This document shows positions 45,123 through 55,288 of a stretch of DNA of 64,000 nt, piece by piece (position 1 is the first letter of the stretch; each line of letters begins with the position of its first letter). This stretch comes from Gammaproteobacteria bacterium (GTDB lineage: Bacteria; Pseudomonadota; Gammaproteobacteria; Pseudomonadales; Azotimanducaceae). The notes under the pieces are model-generated. The model made no database searches. It had not been told where the DNA came from and saw only the letters and a list, made by a program, of their open reading frames with translations. The stretch covers positions 1 through 64,000 of the forward strand of contig JABIZD010000132.1 of assembly GCA_018666555.1 (NCBI GenBank), given 5' to 3'. Position numbers and translations under genes: made by a program.

Positions 45123-45902
45123 TCAAAAACGTAATCGCACTTTCACACCTCGCTCATGCAAGTGAGCTTTCAAGGCGCTTACTGTGTAATCTCCATAATG
45201 GACCATGGAGGCAACCAGGGCTGCATCCGCCTTTCCTTCTGTTAGCACTTCGACTAGATGATCAGGATGTCCCGCACCACCGGAGGCCACCACTGGTACT
45301 GCCACAGCCTCGGCAATCTGGCGAGTCAGATCTATGTCGTAGCCATCCCGGGTGCCATCGGCATCGATGGAATTAACAACCAATTCCCCCGCCCCTAGCG
45401 CCGCACCCTGCTTGGCCCATTGTATGGCATCCAAGCCCATCGGCTTGCGTCCACCATTAATCACAATCTCAAAACCGCTGGGACAGGCAGTGTTGACCTC
45501 GACTCGTTTTACATCCATGGACAGAACCGTGTTCTGACTGCCAATAGCCTGAGCACATTCCGAAATCAGCCCCGGCCTGGTTACGGCCGCTGAATTGACA
45601 TTTATTTTCTCCGCTCCGGCCCACAGCAGTCGGTTAGCATCTTCGATAGTTCGAATACCACCACCAACCGAAAACGGAATAAATATCTGCTCTGCAACCG
45701 CTTGGACAACATCAAGCATAATATTCCTATTATCGCTCGACGCAGTAATATCATAAAAAACCAACTCATCAAGGCCATCATCATAATACTCTTTGGCTTT
45801 GCTTATGGGATCGCCGATATCCTTGGTATTGATGAAGCGAACACTTTTAGCCAGGTTTCCCTCGCGAACATCCAGACAGGCTACTACTCGCTTACTTAAC
45901 AT
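45123..45902 (-). CDS. hisF: Imidazole glycerol phosphate synthase cyclase subunit HisF
   Basis: A 259-residue beta/alpha barrel. [15 protein letters not shown] starts the protein at 45902 (catalytic Asp of VACLDV), and the second catalytic Asp is in [14 protein letters not shown]. Phosphate-binding loops VGGGIRT and ASGGAGH are present. With HisH it makes imidazole glycerol phosphate and AICAR from PRFAR and ammonia. The ATG overlaps the hisH stop (ATGTTAA), so synthesis is coupled. Confidence 0.96.
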
Positions 45903-46531
45903 TCCGTTCCATCCCATTGCGCAAAAGAAGCCAATAGCGCCAATCCCAGCCGACCACTTTTTTCCAAATGAAATTGAGTTGCAAACAGATTCCGCTGGCC
46001 AATCACACTGGCAAAAACAATATCACCATAAGTTGTTTGCGCGAGCACGTTGTCGGCATGACTGGGTTGGGCATAGTAAGAATGAACAAAGTAAAATTCG
46101 TCACCAGACCGGATATTGCCAAACATGGGATGCTGGCTCTTCAATTGGATCTGGTTCCAGCCAATCTGAGGCACTTTTAAACTCGGCTCTGTAAATCTAA
46201 ACTTGTGACAGCCTCCAGGAATAATTCCCAGACAGGTTTCCTGACCTTCCTCTGTCGTATCCATGACTACCTGCAGGCCAAGACAGATACCCAACAGCGG
46301 TTTGCCCAGGCTGAAATATTGCCGTAGCGCTTCATCCAGGCCTCGCTGCCGTATTATATGCATAGCTGATTCAGCAGTGCCAACACCAGGGAATATTAAC
46401 CTGTCAGCCGTTAATAACTCTTCCGGGCTTGCCGTGACACGAGCATCCATCCCCACCGCCGAGCAGGCTCGCTGAACACTACGGATGTTTCCTGCATCAT
46501 AATCAACGATGGTGACTGAAGGTGTTTTCAA
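45896..46531 (-). CDS. hisH: Imidazole glycerol phosphate synthase glutaminase subunit HisH
   Basis: A glutamine amidotransferase supplying ammonia to HisF. The nucleophile Cys is in [22 protein letters not shown] forms the oxyanion region, and the His/Glu pair lies near [11 protein letters not shown]. The frame is open to an ATG at 46558, but a perfect -10 box TATAAT (46562-46557) overlaps that ATG, so it would not be in the transcript. A TTG at 46531 gives [14 protein letters not shown], which fits the family start, and is preferred. The gene is divergent from the GntR-PurM fusion gene. Confidence 0.9.
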
Positions 46532-46556
46532 AAGGTTCGCTCTCTTAAAGGCGTGC

Positions 46557-46562
46557 ATTATA
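46557..46562 (-). promoter_or_regulatory. -10 element of the hisH-hisF promoter
   Basis: A perfect TATAAT on the minus strand. The -35 is weak (GTCGAT at 17 bases spacing). It lies about 26-31 bp before the proposed TTG start of hisH, giving a short leader of roughly 20 bases. Confidence 0.5.
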
Positions 46563-46588: not shown

Positions 46589-46616
46589 TTGATTCATTTT
46601 TATATATCTGTATCAT
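46589..46616 (+). promoter_or_regulatory. Putative promoter of the GntR-PurM gene
   Basis: TTGATT (46589-46594) and TATCAT (46611-46616) are separated by 16 bases, about 30 bp before the ATG. The -10 falls inside the palindrome at 46609-46628, which suggests autoregulation. Confidence 0.45.
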
Positions 46617-46628
46617 ACCTATGATACA
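46609..46628. promoter_or_regulatory. 9-2-9 perfect palindrome, probable GntR operator
   Basis: TGTATCATA (46609-46617), spacer CC, TATGATACA (46620-46628). The arms are exactly complementary. Such short inverted repeats close to the promoter are typical binding sites for GntR-type dimers. It overlaps the predicted -10 of the fusion gene and lies about 45-70 bp from the hisH -10, so it could also influence hisHF. Confidence 0.6.
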
Positions 46629-46646: not shown

Positions 46647-48086
46647 ATGATCACGATTGATAATGAATCCAGTAAGCCCGCCTATCAGCAGATTGCTGAT
46701 CAGATACATTTTGCTATTAACACCGGGGCACTCAAACCTGGCCAAGCACTACCCAGCATTCGAAAGCTGGCTGAAAGTGCTGACCTGGCAAGTAATACGG
46801 TCGTAAAAGCACTAAAGACCCTTGAGGCCAAAGGGCTCATCGAAGCCAAGGACAGATCCGGATACACGGTTAGCAAGACGGCTCTGCCAGACCCTGAAGC
46901 ACACCCAGATGAATCAACTCAATCCAACCGTTATCGGGCCAGGGGAGTCAGCGCTGAAAAAACTGAAGTGCATTCGGTCGTTGACAAACTCGACCCAGGC
47001 CTATTCCCCGGGGCGTTCTGCAAAATTACTGAGGACTATCTCAGTGGTGACCCGACCAAGTGCAATGTGATTCACGCCGATGGTAGCGGTACAAAATCTA
47101 TCATTGCCTACCTTTATTACAAGGAAACCAGCGATGCAAGTATCTTCGAAGGCATTGCCCAGGACAGCATAGTCATGAACCTTGATGACCTGCTCTGTAT
47201 TGGAGCAACGGGTCGAATCCTTCTGTCTAATACCATTAACCGACATGCAAAAAATTGCCCGGGCGACGTTATCCGGGCGCTCATAGAAGGTGGTGAAAAA
47301 TTTATGCAGGAACTTCGTGACCAGGGGGTTCAGATTTATCCTGGCGGGGGTGAAACAGCCGATGTCGGCGATCTTACCGGTACAGTTTTGGTCGACTCCT
47401 GCGCCGTCAGTATTGCCAGAAAATCAGATATCATAGAGAACCATATCACTTCAGACCTGGCTATCGTCGGCCTGTCGTCGTTCGGCCAGTCCATCTACGA
47501 ACATACTGAAAACAGCGGCATCGGCAGCAATGGCCTGACCAGCGCTAGGCATGACATGCTCAGTCGTTATTATGGTGAAACCTATCCGGAGTCATTCGAC
47601 TCAAACCTTCCGGAAACCCTGACCTACTGCGGCCCCTATAAACTCGAGCACAGTTTACCCGGCTCTGAACTGACCGTAGGGCAGGCTCTACTGAGCCCTA
47701 CACGTAGCTATGCACCAATCATTCTGAAGCTGCTCAACTTCATGAAAAGTGAAATCAAAGGCATCGTACACTGCTCCGGAGGAGCCCAGACGAAATGCCT
47801 GCGGTTTGGTCAAGGCGTTCATTTCATTAAGAATAACCTGATGCCAGTGCCTGCTGTGTTTAGTGCAATTCAGAAAGCTTCCCATACCACCATGAAAGAG
47901 ATGTACAAAGTGTTTAATATGGGACATCGCATGGAGCTTTATGTACCCCAATCCAGAGTCGATGAGGTAATCGATGTCGCAAACACATTTGCTATCCATG
48001 CTCAGCAAATCGGTTATACCGAAGCCGCCAGCGAAAACCAGCTAAGTCTGGTTGACCATCAGGGCAAGACTATTCATTATCCGTAA
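46647..48086 (+). CDS. GntR (YtrA-type) regulator fused to a PurM-like AIR synthetase domain
   Basis: A 479-residue fusion. Residues 1-77 are a GntR winged helix: PAYQQIADQIHFAINTGALK, then LPSIRKLAESADLASNTVVKALKTLEAKG, with the wing SGYTV. Residues 96-479 form a full PurM: HADGSGTKS (143-151), MNLDDLLCIGAT (177-188), GGGETADVGDL (233-243), GIGSNGLTSAR (291-301), LLSPTRSYAP (348-357), HCSGGAQTK (375-383) and EMYKVFNMGHRME (418-430). All PurM nucleotide and FGAM motifs appear intact. Wording such as RGVSAEKTEVH and GLFPGAFCKI resembles the Bacteroidetes-type PurM rather than that of E. coli. It may be a purine-intermediate-sensing repressor or a bifunctional enzyme-regulator. It is divergent from hisH. 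Confidence 0.9.
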   Translation: MITIDNESSKPAYQQIADQIHFAINTGALKPGQALPSIRKLAESADLASNTVVKALKTLEAKGLIEAKDRSGYTVSKTALPDPEAHPDESTQSNRYRARGVSAEKTEVHSVVDKLDPGLFPGAFCKITEDYLSGDPTKCNVIHADGSGTKSIIAYLYYKETSDASIFEGIAQDSIVMNLDDLLCIGATGRILLSNTINRHAKNCPGDVIRALIEGGEKFMQELRDQGVQIYPGGGETADVGDLTGTVLVDSCAVSIARKSDIIENHITSDLAIVGLSSFGQSIYEHTENSGIGSNGLTSARHDMLSRYYGETYPESFDSNLPETLTYCGPYKLEHSLPGSELTVGQALLSPTRSYAPIILKLLNFMKSEIKGIVHCSGGAQTKCLRFGQGVHFIKNNLMPVPAVFSAIQKASHTTMKEMYKVFNMGHRMELYVPQSRVDEVIDVANTFAIHAQQIGYTEAASENQLSLVDHQGKTIHYP

Positions 48087-50368: not shown

Positions 50369-53300
50369 CTATAAACCAGCGCTTGATTCAACTTCCACTG
50401 GCTGAATTACAAACAGTAGGTCACCTTCATTTACCTGCTGGCCATTACTGACATTTATTCGATTAACCCGGTACTGGGTCATACTCGAATACAACTCTCC
50501 CTGGCCAGTTGAAAAACTATTCAAGCTACAGGAAGTAAACATCTTCATCGCCTCAAGCACACACAAGGTATCCTCTACGGTAACCTGGTCCCCAACACTG
50601 ACATACTCAGGCTCAGAAGGTGAAGGCGTTCGGAAAAAGACCCCTGTAGAGGGTGAAAGTACCTTCAACTCCTGACTGTTTTCAATTCGCAGCATATCCA
50701 GGTCTATCACTTCTGCCGAGGCACCAGAGGCGATTTCAATCTCTTCAATCAGTGAAGGCACGTCGGTTCGCGACAGAAAATCTGTCAAGAAAGTCGTGTC
50801 ATAATCACCAGACAAAAATACTTCGTCATGCAGAACACGTTTGATGAGACTGATATTAGTGCAAATCCCGTTTATGTTAATCCGATCAAGATAGGCCCGC
50901 ATCCTCGCTACAGTGTCTTCACGATCAGTACCATGAGCAATTACCTGAACAATCAAACTGTCATAAAACGGCGAAACCGTCTTACCCTCCCCAGCCATCG
51001 AAATCAGTTTAATATCATCTTGCTGGGGGAGGTCACACACCGTCATCAAACCAGGTGTGGGTATAAAGGTCACATTACCATCTGCTTCCAAGGAAGCTTT
51101 CTCGGCATTGATCCTGACCTCTAATGCGTAGCCTGACTCCTGGTACTCGACTGACTCCAGGGATTGACCTGATGCAATGGCAAACTGCTGCTTAACAATA
51201 TCAATACCGGTGACAGCTTCCGTCACTGGGTGTTCTACTTGTAATCGCGTATTCATTTCCATGAAATAAATCGCATTGCTGGGCACATCATAGATAAATT
51301 CAACTGTACCGGCACCGATGTAATCAACCGCATCTGCAATCCTAGCGGCACATTCTATGACCTCATCACGCAGTGCTTTTGATAATAGAGTCGAGCCGGA
51401 CTCTTCCATCAACTTTTGATTATTGCGTTGTACGCTACAATCTCTTATACCAATCACACGCGTATTACCCTGAGTATCACGCAGGATCTGTGCTTCTATG
51501 TGGCGAAGCGAGGTGACACACTTTTCAATGTATGTATCGCCATTCCCAAACGCATTCCTGGCTTCCATAGTTACCTGGTGATAGAGCTGGTGCAAATTTT
51601 CTGGGCGCTCCACCTTTACGATGCCTTTGCCACCTCCACCATGTACTGCTTTCAACAGAATTGGATAACCGACCTGGTCTGCAAATTCTGCTGCGATTTC
51701 AGACGATTCAACGATGCCATGGCTTCCAGGAACTACGGGAACATTAATACTCAGCGTCGTATTGATGGCATTGGACTTATTGCCCATGGTCTCCATACTA
51801 GAAACCCTGGGACCAATAAAGTTAATTCCTTTCTGTCTGACAAGGCCTGCAAAATTGGGCGATTCAGAAAGAAAACCTATCCCAGGATGCAAAGAATCAA
51901 CACCTTCATTCTCGGCAATTTTCAATATACTCAATGCATTAAGATAACTTTCATCAGAGGTGTTACCACCGATACATACCAGTGTTCCACGAGTCCCGTC
52001 AGTACCAACCAGGTCGGCAGCGACTGAATCCATATCGGGGTCGGATTGCACCAGAACCGGATGATAATTCAATTCAAGCGCTTTACTTACCAGTTTGACA
52101 GCAGTGCAGCCCCTGGCGTGAATCAATACCTTCTCAACCGGCCTGATGAGCTCATCCTCAGAGAGCTCAGGAGAACCCACTGATGGCTCTATAGCGGTCA
52201 AAACCCCAGACATAATTCGGTCTACTACCGCTTCGATTGTTTCCGTCGGAACCGGTATTGCCGGATCTACCCGTCGCAATTCCTGCTCCAGATCGGTGGC
52301 GAAAGGATGCTTGACCAGACCTTGCATAGCACCGGGTGTCATGGACAGGTAATTGCTCATCATGCAGGTATAGGGAAGATTTCTCTCAACAACAGCCTGA
52401 CCAGCGAATGGCATGCTGCAACCGGAAAAATAATAGGTCTGGGCCAGGGGATGAGTGACAAAACTAGCCTGGGCACCTCCCGTGCAATCACCATAACCAA
52501 AAAGGATAATCGGAAGGTCATTGTCCCTGACAAATCGAGTAATACGATCATTTATCACAGCCATGGTAAACAGCGCTGCCGCTCCTTCCTTGGTCTGCAT
52601 ACCGCCCGAGGAAATGAAGCAGACAACCGGCAGGCGCTGCGATGCACATTCGACCAGCAATTTGCAAAACCGAACACAATCCGAGTTGTCGATGCTGCCT
52701 GCTTGAAAAGCAACATTAGACATTACCAGGCCAACCCTGTAACTAGACTCGCTGGTATTAAAATCACCAATCCCGGTAATAAGGCCGTGAGGCCGAATAT
52801 CATTCTTAAGGGCGGATTCGATCGACGGCCTGAAAGTAGGGAAAGACACTGGATTGGCGGACATCAAATTGGCACTGGTTTCTTCAAAGCCTGAAACATA
52901 GCGTTCGAGCAAGGTTTCAAAGCGAGTCTTCTTGGAGCGCTTTTCACGGGTCAGTAACTCATTGAAAAGCAGATCCCTGTAGGCAATCGTCAACCGGTTC
53001 CAAAAATCTTTTCTGCGACCAATTCGAACCGGCTCGAGCTTGCCTTTAAAAGGCCTACCATGACGATTGGCATTGTGATAATCAGGAAGCACCTTCTCAA
53101 AAACATGACTGATGACCACAAAGAGCGTATCTGATTTATCCTTATGAACCACCCGCATCCATTCTTCTACGGCTTTAAGGAACACGCTGCCACCAAAATA
53201 CTGGCCAAGCTGCTCGACCCAGAGAGCAAACTCACTGTTGATTTCAGCTGGCCTAATATCAGCAAACAACGGCATCAAGGCGACCTGCGAGACCGCCTGT

Positions 53301-55288
53301 GCGAGCAGTTTTTCCAGCATTTCCCCAGAAAGATGGCGCGAATCATGGGCTTCCTGAGCAATGGCTACCAGTTCTCTCAAGAGCACATCATAGGTAGTTG
53401 AAAAAACGACTAAATTCCTACACTCCTGAAGGAAATGAATATTCACATCCGGATCTAACAAAACTTCAAGAATCGTCAGGTCCTGGCCTGTGCTGCCCTG
53501 ACTTTCCCCTGAGGTTCTATGCAGGTGCGACCAGAGCGAGTCTTCCAGCAAGCGTCGATTCAGGGGAATCATGGACCGAGACGAAGACTTATCTTTGACT
53601 AGCGCGCGAGTCTGCGGCGAGAGGCTGATTCCTGACAAGCGGCTTTCATCAAAAAGATCCTCTTGTTCAAGAATTAAATTAAGTTCAGAGGCCAGCTGTG
53701 CCCTGAGGAAATCTGGTTTTTTCTGGTCTATGAAGGCCGGGTCAAACAATTTCCGGCCATCAAAGCTAAACAGGGATTTGAGGTGCTGGACAAATGACTC
53801 GTCACATTCTGACATGGAGACCAGCAATGTCTTGACCTCTTTAATCTCTTCTGTAGCCAGCAGATAATTGCTGGATTCATATTCATTCAGGTGTTCTATT
53901 AGCGCCAGTAGGTTATCTTTAGCATTTCCTTTCCAGCGATTAAAAAGATGCAAACCAGCGACCATGCAAAGCTCCTGGCGAGCTTTCTCATAGTTCTTTT
54001 CAGGCTCACCAAAAATCAGCTTCCTTAGCGCGCCCTGCTCATCACCAAGACGCTCTCTCTTTTCGACAAAATTCTTCCAGACCTTATTAAGCGCATCGTC
54101 ATATAAAACTTTGTCTGGGTCCTGTAACCAGTTCAAAAAAGCTGCGCGTCTTTCCCTATGAACTCGCTGGGCCAGCTCACCTGGCGGAATTTCCACATTT
54201 GCCAATCGGCCATACTGGGTGGTTGTGGTTGCTTTAATCCTGCTGCGTAATCCGAGATAGCGCAGATATCGATAAGCAACTCCAAACACATTCGGATATT
54301 CAGTAGGTGAGGTTCTCAGTTTCAGGCTGGAACTGGCATTGACCGCTGCCAGATACTCCGACACGTTCAAATATCGATTAATATTTCTGTGGTAATGATC
54401 CAGGATTTCCGGATGTTCACCGACAAACTGCCGGGCACCCTCTTCGATAGAAGAAATCGCAGCGACTATGACGTCTCTCAAATTCTGGATGTTTTCAGTT
54501 TCACCTGGATCGTAATCGACTATGCCGTCAATATTTCCCTGACGATATAATTCAAACGACGAGACCCCGACAAACTTGGCACACTCCTGCCAGGAGAGAT
54601 TATAACGCGTCACCAAACTTGCAAGGCTGCGAGGGTGAATAGTATTAAATACACCCGTACGTAGACTCAACAACAAATTACTGGCCGCAAGCGGAATTGC
54701 TCCTCCTGAATAGCCCTGGCCAACAATGATACCAACGGTTGGAACATCAACATTACACAATTCTGCAATCAATCGAGAAATCGAATGCGCCTGATTTGCA
54801 GCATTGGCCTGCTCATAGGGATCAGCACCCGGGGTATCCATAAAAGTTACAATCGGCAAGGACCGGATAGCGAACCCTATAGCCCGGTCAGCAGCAGCCT
54901 GATGGTGCTCTGGCCCCCACACACCGCTACCAAAAGCTCGATCCTGGGCAATCAGACCAATGGTTCGTGGGCTACCATCAAATTCCAGTTCAACCTCGCA
55001 GGCGAAGTAAGGACCTAACCTTTCTTCATGGCTGATCGGCAGCTCCAAAGCCTCTATGACCTGACGCGCTCCGGGTCGAGTTGATTCTTCACTCGGCAAC
55101 ACCGTCGCTGCTATATACTCATCCACTTCCATTGTCTGAAGTTGCTGCAGCTGAATATTGACCTGTTGTTCAGATAAAAGCCCTTTTAGAGGCGCAGCAG
55201 GGCCTTTTCGCGGGAAAAGAGAAAAATCCTCCGAAAGGGTTTCCGCATTCAAATAAAGTTGATCAATAGATCCTGGCTTCTGTGCCAT
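50369..55288 (-). CDS. Single-chain acyl-CoA carboxylase (CT-alpha, CT-beta, BC, BCCP)
   Basis: A 1639-residue multidomain biotin enzyme. Residues about 60-310 are an AccA-like carboxyltransferase half (MDTPGADPYEQAN at 150, GQGYSGGAIPLA at 190). About 330-760 is a charged, mostly helical region without a domain I recognise. About 780-1040 is an AccD-like half (FISSGGMQTKEGAAAL near 895, GYGDCTGGAQASF). About 1050-1510 is biotin carboxylase (VHGGGGKGIV, EMNTRLQVEHPVTEA). The end is a biotinyl domain with VLEAMKMF (Lys1582). Together this is a complete acetyl- or acyl-CoA carboxylase. The domain order differs from eukaryotic ACC (BC-BCCP-CT) and from AccABCD subunits. The acyl substrate is unknown. 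Confidence 0.88.
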   Translation of the reverse strand: MAQKPGSIDQLYLNAETLSEDFSLFPRKGPAAPLKGLLSEQQVNIQLQQLQTMEVDEYIAATVLPSEESTRPGARQVIEALELPISHEERLGPYFACEVELEFDGSPRTIGLIAQDRAFGSGVWGPEHHQAAADRAIGFAIRSLPIVTFMDTPGADPYEQANAANQAHSISRLIAELCNVDVPTVGIIVGQGYSGGAIPLAASNLLLSLRTGVFNTIHPRSLASLVTRYNLSWQECAKFVGVSSFELYRQGNIDGIVDYDPGETENIQNLRDVIVAAISSIEEGARQFVGEHPEILDHYHRNINRYLNVSEYLAAVNASSSLKLRTSPTEYPNVFGVAYRYLRYLGLRSRIKATTTTQYGRLANVEIPPGELAQRVHRERRAAFLNWLQDPDKVLYDDALNKVWKNFVEKRERLGDEQGALRKLIFGEPEKNYEKARQELCMVAGLHLFNRWKGNAKDNLLALIEHLNEYESSNYLLATEEIKEVKTLLVSMSECDESFVQHLKSLFSFDGRKLFDPAFIDQKKPDFLRAQLASELNLILEQEDLFDESRLSGISLSPQTRALVKDKSSSRSMIPLNRRLLEDSLWSHLHRTSGESQGSTGQDLTILEVLLDPDVNIHFLQECRNLVVFSTTYDVLLRELVAIAQEAHDSRHLSGEMLEKLLAQAVSQVALMPLFADIRPAEINSEFALWVEQLGQYFGGSVFLKAVEEWMRVVHKDKSDTLFVVISHVFEKVLPDYHNANRHGRPFKGKLEPVRIGRRKDFWNRLTIAYRDLLFNELLTREKRSKKTRFETLLERYVSGFEETSANLMSANPVSFPTFRPSIESALKNDIRPHGLITGIGDFNTSESSYRVGLVMSNVAFQAGSIDNSDCVRFCKLLVECASQRLPVVCFISSGGMQTKEGAAALFTMAVINDRITRFVRDNDLPIILFGYGDCTGGAQASFVTHPLAQTYYFSGCSMPFAGQAVVERNLPYTCMMSNYLSMTPGAMQGLVKHPFATDLEQELRRVDPAIPVPTETIEAVVDRIMSGVLTAIEPSVGSPELSEDELIRPVEKVLIHARGCTAVKLVSKALELNYHPVLVQSDPDMDSVAADLVGTDGTRGTLVCIGGNTSDESYLNALSILKIAENEGVDSLHPGIGFLSESPNFAGLVRQKGINFIGPRVSSMETMGNKSNAINTTLSINVPVVPGSHGIVESSEIAAEFADQVGYPILLKAVHGGGGKGIVKVERPENLHQLYHQVTMEARNAFGNGDTYIEKCVTSLRHIEAQILRDTQGNTRVIGIRDCSVQRNNQKLMEESGSTLLSKALRDEVIECAARIADAVDYIGAGTVEFIYDVPSNAIYFMEMNTRLQVEHPVTEAVTGIDIVKQQFAIASGQSLESVEYQESGYALEVRINAEKASLEADGNVTFIPTPGLMTVCDLPQQDDIKLISMAGEGKTVSPFYDSLIVQVIAHGTDREDTVARMRAYLDRININGICTNISLIKRVLHDEVFLSGDYDTTFLTDFLSRTDVPSLIEEIEIASGASAEVIDLDMLRIENSQELKVLSPSTGVFFRTPSPSEPEYVSVGDQVTVEDTLCVLEAMKMFTSCSLNSFSTGQGELYSSMTQYRVNRINVSNGQQVNEGDLLFVIQPVEVESSAGL

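Follow-up and report, generated by a model that had tools for sequence, protein, structure and literature searches.

A probable enzyme-regulator of purine synthesis: a GntR DNA-binding domain fused to a Bacteroidota-type AIR synthetase

A gene that joins a DNA-binding domain to an enzyme of purine synthesis raises the question of whether its product works as an enzyme, as a regulator or as both. Such a gene lies in contig JABIZD010000132.1 (assembly GCA_018666555.1, forward strand), of which a stretch of 64,000 nt, called the window here, was analyzed. The enzyme in question is PurM (AIR synthetase), which closes the first purine ring. An earlier note, made from the sequence of the window, had described a GntR domain and a full PurM joined in one frame, and this join was confirmed: the frame runs uninterrupted from an ATG over 479 codons with no internal stop, the N-terminal part belongs to the GntR family (PF00392, 56.4 bits; cut-off 27), and the Pfam domains AIRS (residues 137-253) and AIRS_C (residues 342-465) each score above their cut-offs. 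Pfam, phmmer and AlphaFold all place the DNA-binding domain and the enzyme in one chain (Table 1).

Table 1 Features of the fusion locus and of related loci. Coordinates are those of the window unless a locus is named.
Feature	Position	Strand	Basis
GntR-PurM fusion gene, 479 aa	46647..48086	+	Open reading frame and translation; same architecture in 36 genomes examined
GntR winged-helix DNA-binding domain, residues 1-77	46647..46877	+	PF00392 match to residues 13-75; conserved recognition helix
Variable linker, residues 78-92	46878..46922	+	Length differs among fusions; low pLDDT
AIR synthetase (PurM) domain, Bacteroidota type, residues 93-479	46923..48083	+	Homology to 3mdo; superposition on 3mdo_B
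Operator palindrome TGTATCAT-ACCT-ATGATACA, predicted own binding site	46609..46628	.	Conserved upstream of fusion genes
Promoter-like pair TTGATT-16-TATCAT, second hexamer inside the operator	46589..46616	+	9/12 matches
Divergent hisH and hisF, neighbours that the model does not need	45123..46558	-	TIGR01855 202.2 bits, TIGR00735 332.8 bits, both above cut-off
Small YtrA-like GntR genes with a fusion-type operator in front	L124 1072-1443; L139 1115-1486		

The same fusion was found in 36 distinct genomes examined (29 Pseudomonadota, 5 Myxococcota, 1 Planctomycetota and 1 Acidobacteriota, as judged from record titles and tree taxonomy), with 56-84% identity to the window protein. An architecture shared by this many genomes is not explained by a sequencing frameshift or an assembly chimera, the artefacts that the earlier note had named as possible refutations, and both were rejected. 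The set consists of G000, G001, G012, G015, G016, G022 and 30 genomes reached via individual loci. It derives from relatives of the window's genome and from a GTDB scan that returned 202 stretches, from which the best 80 of 164 relatives were taken; exact peptide words were required, so some relatives were missed. Three loci were dropped as coming from the same genomes as others (L006, L007 and L010, equivalent to L038, L039 and L048; L007 is also on the other strand), as were L050, a truncated second fusion copy in the genome of L038, and L090 and L021, a C-terminal fragment. Five more fusion matches (G299, G303, G323, G342, G425) lie outside the set. The GntR-PurM fusion is rare: 390 genomes of the window's order contained seven fusions and one stand-alone gene of the same enzyme type, 398 genomes of the phylum held no fusion beyond the window's own, and 282 genomes of the phylum of G059, by title a Polyangiaceae MAG, held none beyond that of G059. 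Two records deserve comment. Contigs C21 and C94 of G012 carry near-identical fusion copies with the same operator, one of them cut by the contig end, and are probably strain variants in one bin. L061 is titled as a Klebsiella pneumoniae MAG; on the tree its fusion joins marine-type gammaproteobacterial ones, and the label is probably wrong.

The PurM part is of the Bacteroidota type, for which PurM-II is used below as shorthand. In a phmmer search of solved structures, residues 93-474 matched the Parabacteroides AIR synthetase 3mdo_A (E 6.5e-129) and residues 92-474 the Cytophaga AIR synthetase 3kiz_A (E 3.3e-121), two Bacteroidota proteins annotated as "putative" in the PDB, whereas canonical PurM structures were far weaker matches (best E 4.9e-17). 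Homology to these solved stand-alone enzymes extends over their full length, with 48-50% identity across the whole domain, and marks the same enzyme type; the stand-alone proteins differ from the fusion in having neither a DNA-binding domain nor, at the stand-alone genes examined, an operator. With the canonical PurM model TIGR00878 the fusion reached 99.3 bits, below the cut-off of 236.35; in control genomes the same model scored above its cut-off in 13 of 14 cases, the exception being likely Bacteroides ihuae. An AlphaFold model built from a 57-row alignment (34 fusions and 23 stand-alone PurM-II) gave a pLDDT of 88.2 and a pTM of 0.77 and superseded a model from a 29-row alignment (pLDDT 65.6); alignments A1 and A2 cover 29 and 34 of the 36 fusions, respectively. 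The modelled PurM part superimposes on 3mdo_B over 362 residues (rmsd 1.1, Z 53.8), fold matches to solved structures begin at about residue 91 and continue onward, and linker residues 80-91 have pLDDT values below 50.

The earlier statement that all motifs of the PurM part are intact stood for the shared catalytic motifs. The columns DGxGTK, GGETA, SNG, PTRxY, HxxGG and EM...N.G are common to 12 sequences, two canonical PurM and ten of type II, the fusion included. Moreover, the titles of PDB entries name the mutants N186A and H239A of the Pyrococcus abyssi AIR synthetase, residues that correspond to N295 and H375 of the fusion when counted along the P. horikoshii alignment and assuming equal numbering, and both are invariant in all 57 rows. 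Judged from its sequence, the fusion looks like a working AIR synthetase.

A second purM, for which the earlier note had proposed a search, was not found in the window's genome (97.63% complete). The fusion was the sole match to TIGR00878, and the two other proteins with a PF00586 domain are ThiL (269.1 bits; cut-off 184.15) and an oxidoreductase-SelD-type fusion; neither profile search showed a canonical purM elsewhere in this genome. A canonical purM above the TIGR00878 cut-off was likewise absent from 33 of the 36 fusion genomes, including 27 of the 30 further ones. Among 37 relatives, 19 have such a gene, namely all seven family members without PurM-II and 12 genomes of the order, and it was seen in none of five fusion carriers and none of ten same-genus genomes with a stand-alone PurM-II. 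It was also absent from G010, which has a C-terminal PurM-II fragment, and G006 (62% complete) and G026 (75% complete) showed neither type. Matches to purL, whose product FGAM is the substrate of PurM, were obtained in all 36 fusion genomes (34 above cut-off), and matches to purC in 34 (26 above cut-off), so the purine pathway is present and PurM is needed there. Most carriers are MAGs, 30 of them listed with no completeness figure, and the absences therefore fall short of proof; with this reservation, the fusion is probably the cell's PurM. The three genomes with both a fusion and a canonical purM (G062, G063 and G066) may reflect binning errors, recent transfers, or fusions that are free to turn into pure regulators.

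These data bear on the idea that the PurM part is catalytically dead and merely senses a ligand for the GntR domain, in the manner of the aminotransferase part of MocR. In its favour, the C-terminal domains of GntR proteins are mostly sensory, MocR is described as an enzyme fold serving as sensor (PMC5320631, in part), and three of the 36 genomes have a canonical purM as well. However, nothing else found in the other 33 genomes would make AIR, although purL is matched in every one, and the catalytic motifs are retained; a pure sensor is thus highly improbable. The earlier note had left the choice between such a sensor and an active enzyme that moonlights as a regulator, and it is the second reading that the sequences support well, through the missing purM and through a conserved operator at the fusion's own gene.

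That operator, a palindrome to which the earlier note had drawn attention, is present in the window exactly as described there. Its pattern, TGTATYA-N6-TRATACA, recurs upstream of the 36 fusion genes, exactly in 28, with one mismatch in five, two in two and four in one; at most one mismatch was thus seen in 33 of 36, and one of the one-mismatch cases is an N in the record. The sites end 0-59 bases before the fusion start codons, which were partly chosen by us. None of 838 random 200-base segments from 23 of these loci contained the pattern with zero or one mismatch, while two contained it with two and ten with three. In TGTATCATACCTATGATACA the dinucleotides GT and AC stand 14 bases apart, and a position of GT and AC far from the centre is the trait of YtrA operators given in the consulted part of PMC4494728, which also describes YtrA regulons as mostly a single operon.

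On the protein side, the recognition helix A-x-NTV-x-KA of the GntR domain is kept among the fusions. Three sites with at least two mismatches were inspected. Those of L044 (CTGTACTAT-GATG-ATAGTACAG) and L064 (CTGTACCC-TCCACA-GGGTACAG) are perfect inverted repeats in which both arms changed alike, and the third, that of L065, is not. Only L044, among the 36 fusions, has Asp in place of Asn50 in the recognition helix, L064 retaining Asn50. Contacts of Asn with A and of Asp with C are among the commonest predicted for GntR proteins (PMC4494728, in part), and the pairing of Asp50 with an altered operator in L044 is a hint of recognition that, as a single case, is only suggestive.

At stand-alone PurM-II genes the operator was absent in 23 of 23 loci from the window's genus, Verrucomicrobiota and Bacteroidota, the best match within 300 bases having at least three mismatches. 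A tblastn search of the same 23 loci with three fusion GntR domains returned only two chance-level matches (E 0.16 and 0.11), so that no separate GntR gene was seen adjoining the stand-alone genes within the flanks covered, which for ten loci of the window's genus were at most 1.5 kb. GntR domain and operator thus appear to go together, and the fusion protein probably binds its own promoter at the predicted operator. If the GntR domain were instead a passenger or a stabilising extension of a protein that is an enzyme only, one would point to stand-alone PurM-II, which works without it, and to Verrucomicrobiota genes that lack it and nest among the fusions on the tree. Conservation of the recognition helix and the operator across phyla speaks against such an idle domain, as does the lack of the site at every stand-alone gene examined, and we give this explanation very little credence.

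How many genes the predicted regulator would serve was assessed with the exact pattern in 49 genomes, 36 with and 13 without the fusion. The fusion genomes contained 32 exact forward-strand sites, 29 of which lie at fusion genes (two of these on the two G012 contigs) and three elsewhere (G022, G053, G055). The 13 other genomes contained one, in G007, within overlapping frames, and the reversed pattern had no exact match in any of the 49; when two mismatches were allowed, the reversed control also matched, in two genomes. As far as the exact pattern was searched, the operator appears nearly private to the fusion gene. Two of the extra exact sites precede small YtrA-like GntR genes, by 14 and 57 bases, and each of these genes is followed by an ABC ATPase frame; the third site, in L141, has the same sequence as L139. 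These sites may tell the source of the fusion's DNA-binding domain, and cross-talk between the fusion and the YtrA-like genes is possible in the genomes of L124 and L139.

The neighbourhood of the fusion was surveyed in 34 of the 36 loci (L008 and L009 have short flanks; in L068 the longest-frame selection took an antisense frame over the fusion). Neighbours vary by lineage, with hisHF and a PilT/PilU-type ATPase in one group and an RsmJ-like methyltransferase, a GST-like gene, TsaD or KAS III in others, and no purine-pathway enzyme proper was present among 13 scanned neighbour proteins. Since the operator stays constant while the neighbours change, its target would be the fusion gene. Histidine synthesis releases AICAR, a purine intermediate, and the divergent hisH-hisF pair could be imagined as the main target, coupling histidine to purine synthesis: hisF-like and hisH-like genes each adjoin the fusion in 15 of 34 loci, the window's included. 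Yet most of the remaining loci, among them the myxobacterial, planctomycete and acidobacterial ones, keep the operator next to other neighbours, and YtrA sites are almost never located between divergent operons according to the part of PMC4494728 consulted, which leaves this explanation very improbable. If the site did regulate hisH and hisF in addition, histidine synthesis and PurM would be linked in the window's lineage. Elsewhere in the window (50369-55288, minus strand), one frame encodes a 1639-aa chain that unites domains of carboxyltransferase type, biotin carboxylase and biotin carrier, and a frame of this family adjoins the fusion in 14 of 34 loci.

The position of the operator suggests the direction of control. 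Its TATCAT hexamer (46611-46616) can be read as the second element of a promoter-like pair; such pairs are weak evidence alone, four being found in the scanned region against 2.5 expected from shuffles. Across the 36 fusions, a hexamer with at least four of six matches to TTGACA stands 16-18 bases before the left TATCAT in 12, compared with 10.9% of control positions, and the spacing before the left half-site peaks at 17 with eight cases, an arrangement that is enriched and not universal. The right half-site was rejected as a -10 element, the corresponding -35-like hexamers occurring in 4/36 and 6/36 with no enrichment over 10.9%. In five myxobacterial fusions the operator ends 0-3 bases before the start codon. 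A site lying over a -10-like hexamer or abutting a start codon would hinder initiation, which makes repression likelier, and on the basis of site position the fusion is probably a repressor of its own gene. In Sulfolobus, YtrASa occupies a site over the transcription start and from there represses its own operon (PMC6746942, in part).

It is possible, though we think it unlikely, that the active enzyme on its own operator is an activator, or that it limits its own level simply by concentration, with no ligand effect. A site 36-59 bases before the start codon, where so placed, suits activation too, and YtrA proteins may lack ligand pockets (PMC6746942, in part). Against activation stand the overlap with the -10-like hexamer in the window and the five myxobacterial sites next to the start codon, which fit repression, and against a signal-free device stands the full enzyme with its substrate sites attached, through which a ligand effect would be possible. 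The evidence thus favours, with good though incomplete confidence, a protein with two functions, in which an active AIR synthetase, with no other PurM found in its genome, carries a YtrA-like GntR domain that acts on the palindrome in the promoter of the same gene and governs hardly any gene besides.

To our knowledge, few enzymes carry a fused DNA-binding domain with which they control their own genes; those that we can name are PutA, whose repression is relieved by proline, and RbkR, which targets riboflavin genes. With enzyme-regulators of this kind the fusion shares the presence of a DNA-binding domain and an enzyme in one chain, and the conserved operator at its own gene suggests that it may also bind its own promoter. 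PutA is an enzyme with an N-terminal DNA-binding domain, as is the fusion, and an autogenous transcriptional repressor (PMC5293562, in part); it differs in its ribbon-helix-helix domain, its role in proline catabolism and its put regulon, the fusion having instead a GntR domain, an enzyme of purine biosynthesis and a single target within the scope searched. RbkR, described in the consulted part of PMC8305020 as a helix-turn-helix domain fused to a biosynthetic enzyme and as a bifunctional gene regulator and enzyme, resembles the fusion in this combination, but it is an archaeal riboflavin kinase of another fold and pathway. MocR proteins likewise combine a GntR domain with an enzyme fold and are often auto-repressing; their aminotransferase-like part is a sensory domain and their operators are often direct repeats (PMC5320631, in part), in contrast to the PurM fold and inverted repeat seen here, and MocR-type NCBIfam models match the N-terminal part of the fusion only, below cut-off. 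YtrA proteins offer a related winged helix and operators in which GT and AC likewise stand far from the centre, and the two YtrA-like genes mentioned above share the operator pattern (PMC4494728, in part, for YtrA). Their C-terminal domain is short and their usual targets are ABC transporters, whereas the fusion carries a whole enzyme, a PurM domain of about 387 residues, C-terminally; it is not filed as a YtrA for this reason, and only its DNA-binding domain resembles one. On the best reading, the fusion would work in the manner of PutA or RbkR, with an enzyme of purine synthesis in the place of theirs.

In the mechanism that we propose, the fusion protein would bind, as a dimer, the palindrome over its own promoter and repress its own gene, and occupancy of the PurM active site by FGAM, ATP, AIR or ADP would shift DNA binding, such that expression tracks demand. 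In the simplest loop, idle enzyme would sit on the operator and repress, and substrate-bound enzyme would release it. Sensing of a purine intermediate or of ATP, as the earlier note supposed, is plausible. This loop, which would resemble that of PutA, is the likeliest; a product acting as co-repressor, or no signal at all, would fit as well. A broader proposal, on which we would place an even bet, is that the cell's AIR synthetase is its own transcription factor, that the binding of FGAM, ATP or AIR in its active site decides operator occupancy so that its level follows flux with no other regulator, and that gene and operator form a self-contained cassette which displaced canonical purM in several phyla. 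Because gene and operator move together, such a cassette could replace purM independently of the regulators of a new host, which fits the patchy spread.

No description of a GntR-PurM fusion was found in the open-access literature searched by title and abstract. Self-regulation by an enzyme with a fused DNA-binding domain is known in kind from PutA and RbkR; the form seen here, with a GntR domain on a purine enzyme, seems to be a new one. If the proposal is true, it adds a purine-synthesis enzyme that unites catalysis and control in one chain, and since one operator and one target were found as far as searched, the coupling of flux to transcription would be easy to measure. The control carried on board would also hint at why a gene might move between phyla and displace a core enzyme. 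Furthermore, fusions could readily be annotated as GntR regulators only, which would produce a false purM gap in metabolic reconstructions.

The history of the fusion was approached through a tree of 65 PurM-II domains, from which L016 and L020 had been omitted. With midpoint rooting only, Bacteroidota fall on one side, followed by the stand-alone genes of the window's genus (100/99) and then by the fusions, among which the Verrucomicrobiota stand-alone genes are nested, so that the fusion label needs three changes. A single clade of all fusions runs against this best tree; constraining them to one clade costs 30.2 log units, a poorer fit that the test does not clearly reject (p-AU 0.062). In a comparison with 25 other GntR domains, those of the fusions cluster apart (92/88, from only 81 columns). 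We prefer one fusion event with interphylum transfers and with loss of domain and operator in Verrucomicrobiota, as the pattern suggests, over separate gains of the fusion, the less preferred alternative. The earlier view of a Bacteroidetes-like PurM part transferred before fusion was half right: the type is indeed that of 3mdo and 3kiz, but the nearest stand-alone relatives belong to the same genus and to Verrucomicrobiota, Bacteroidota are outer, and the fusion itself occurs in several phyla. Among the stand-alone PurM-II genes of the window's genus (L011-L019), several have no ATG in their short N-terminal stretch, and these genes seem to start at TTG.
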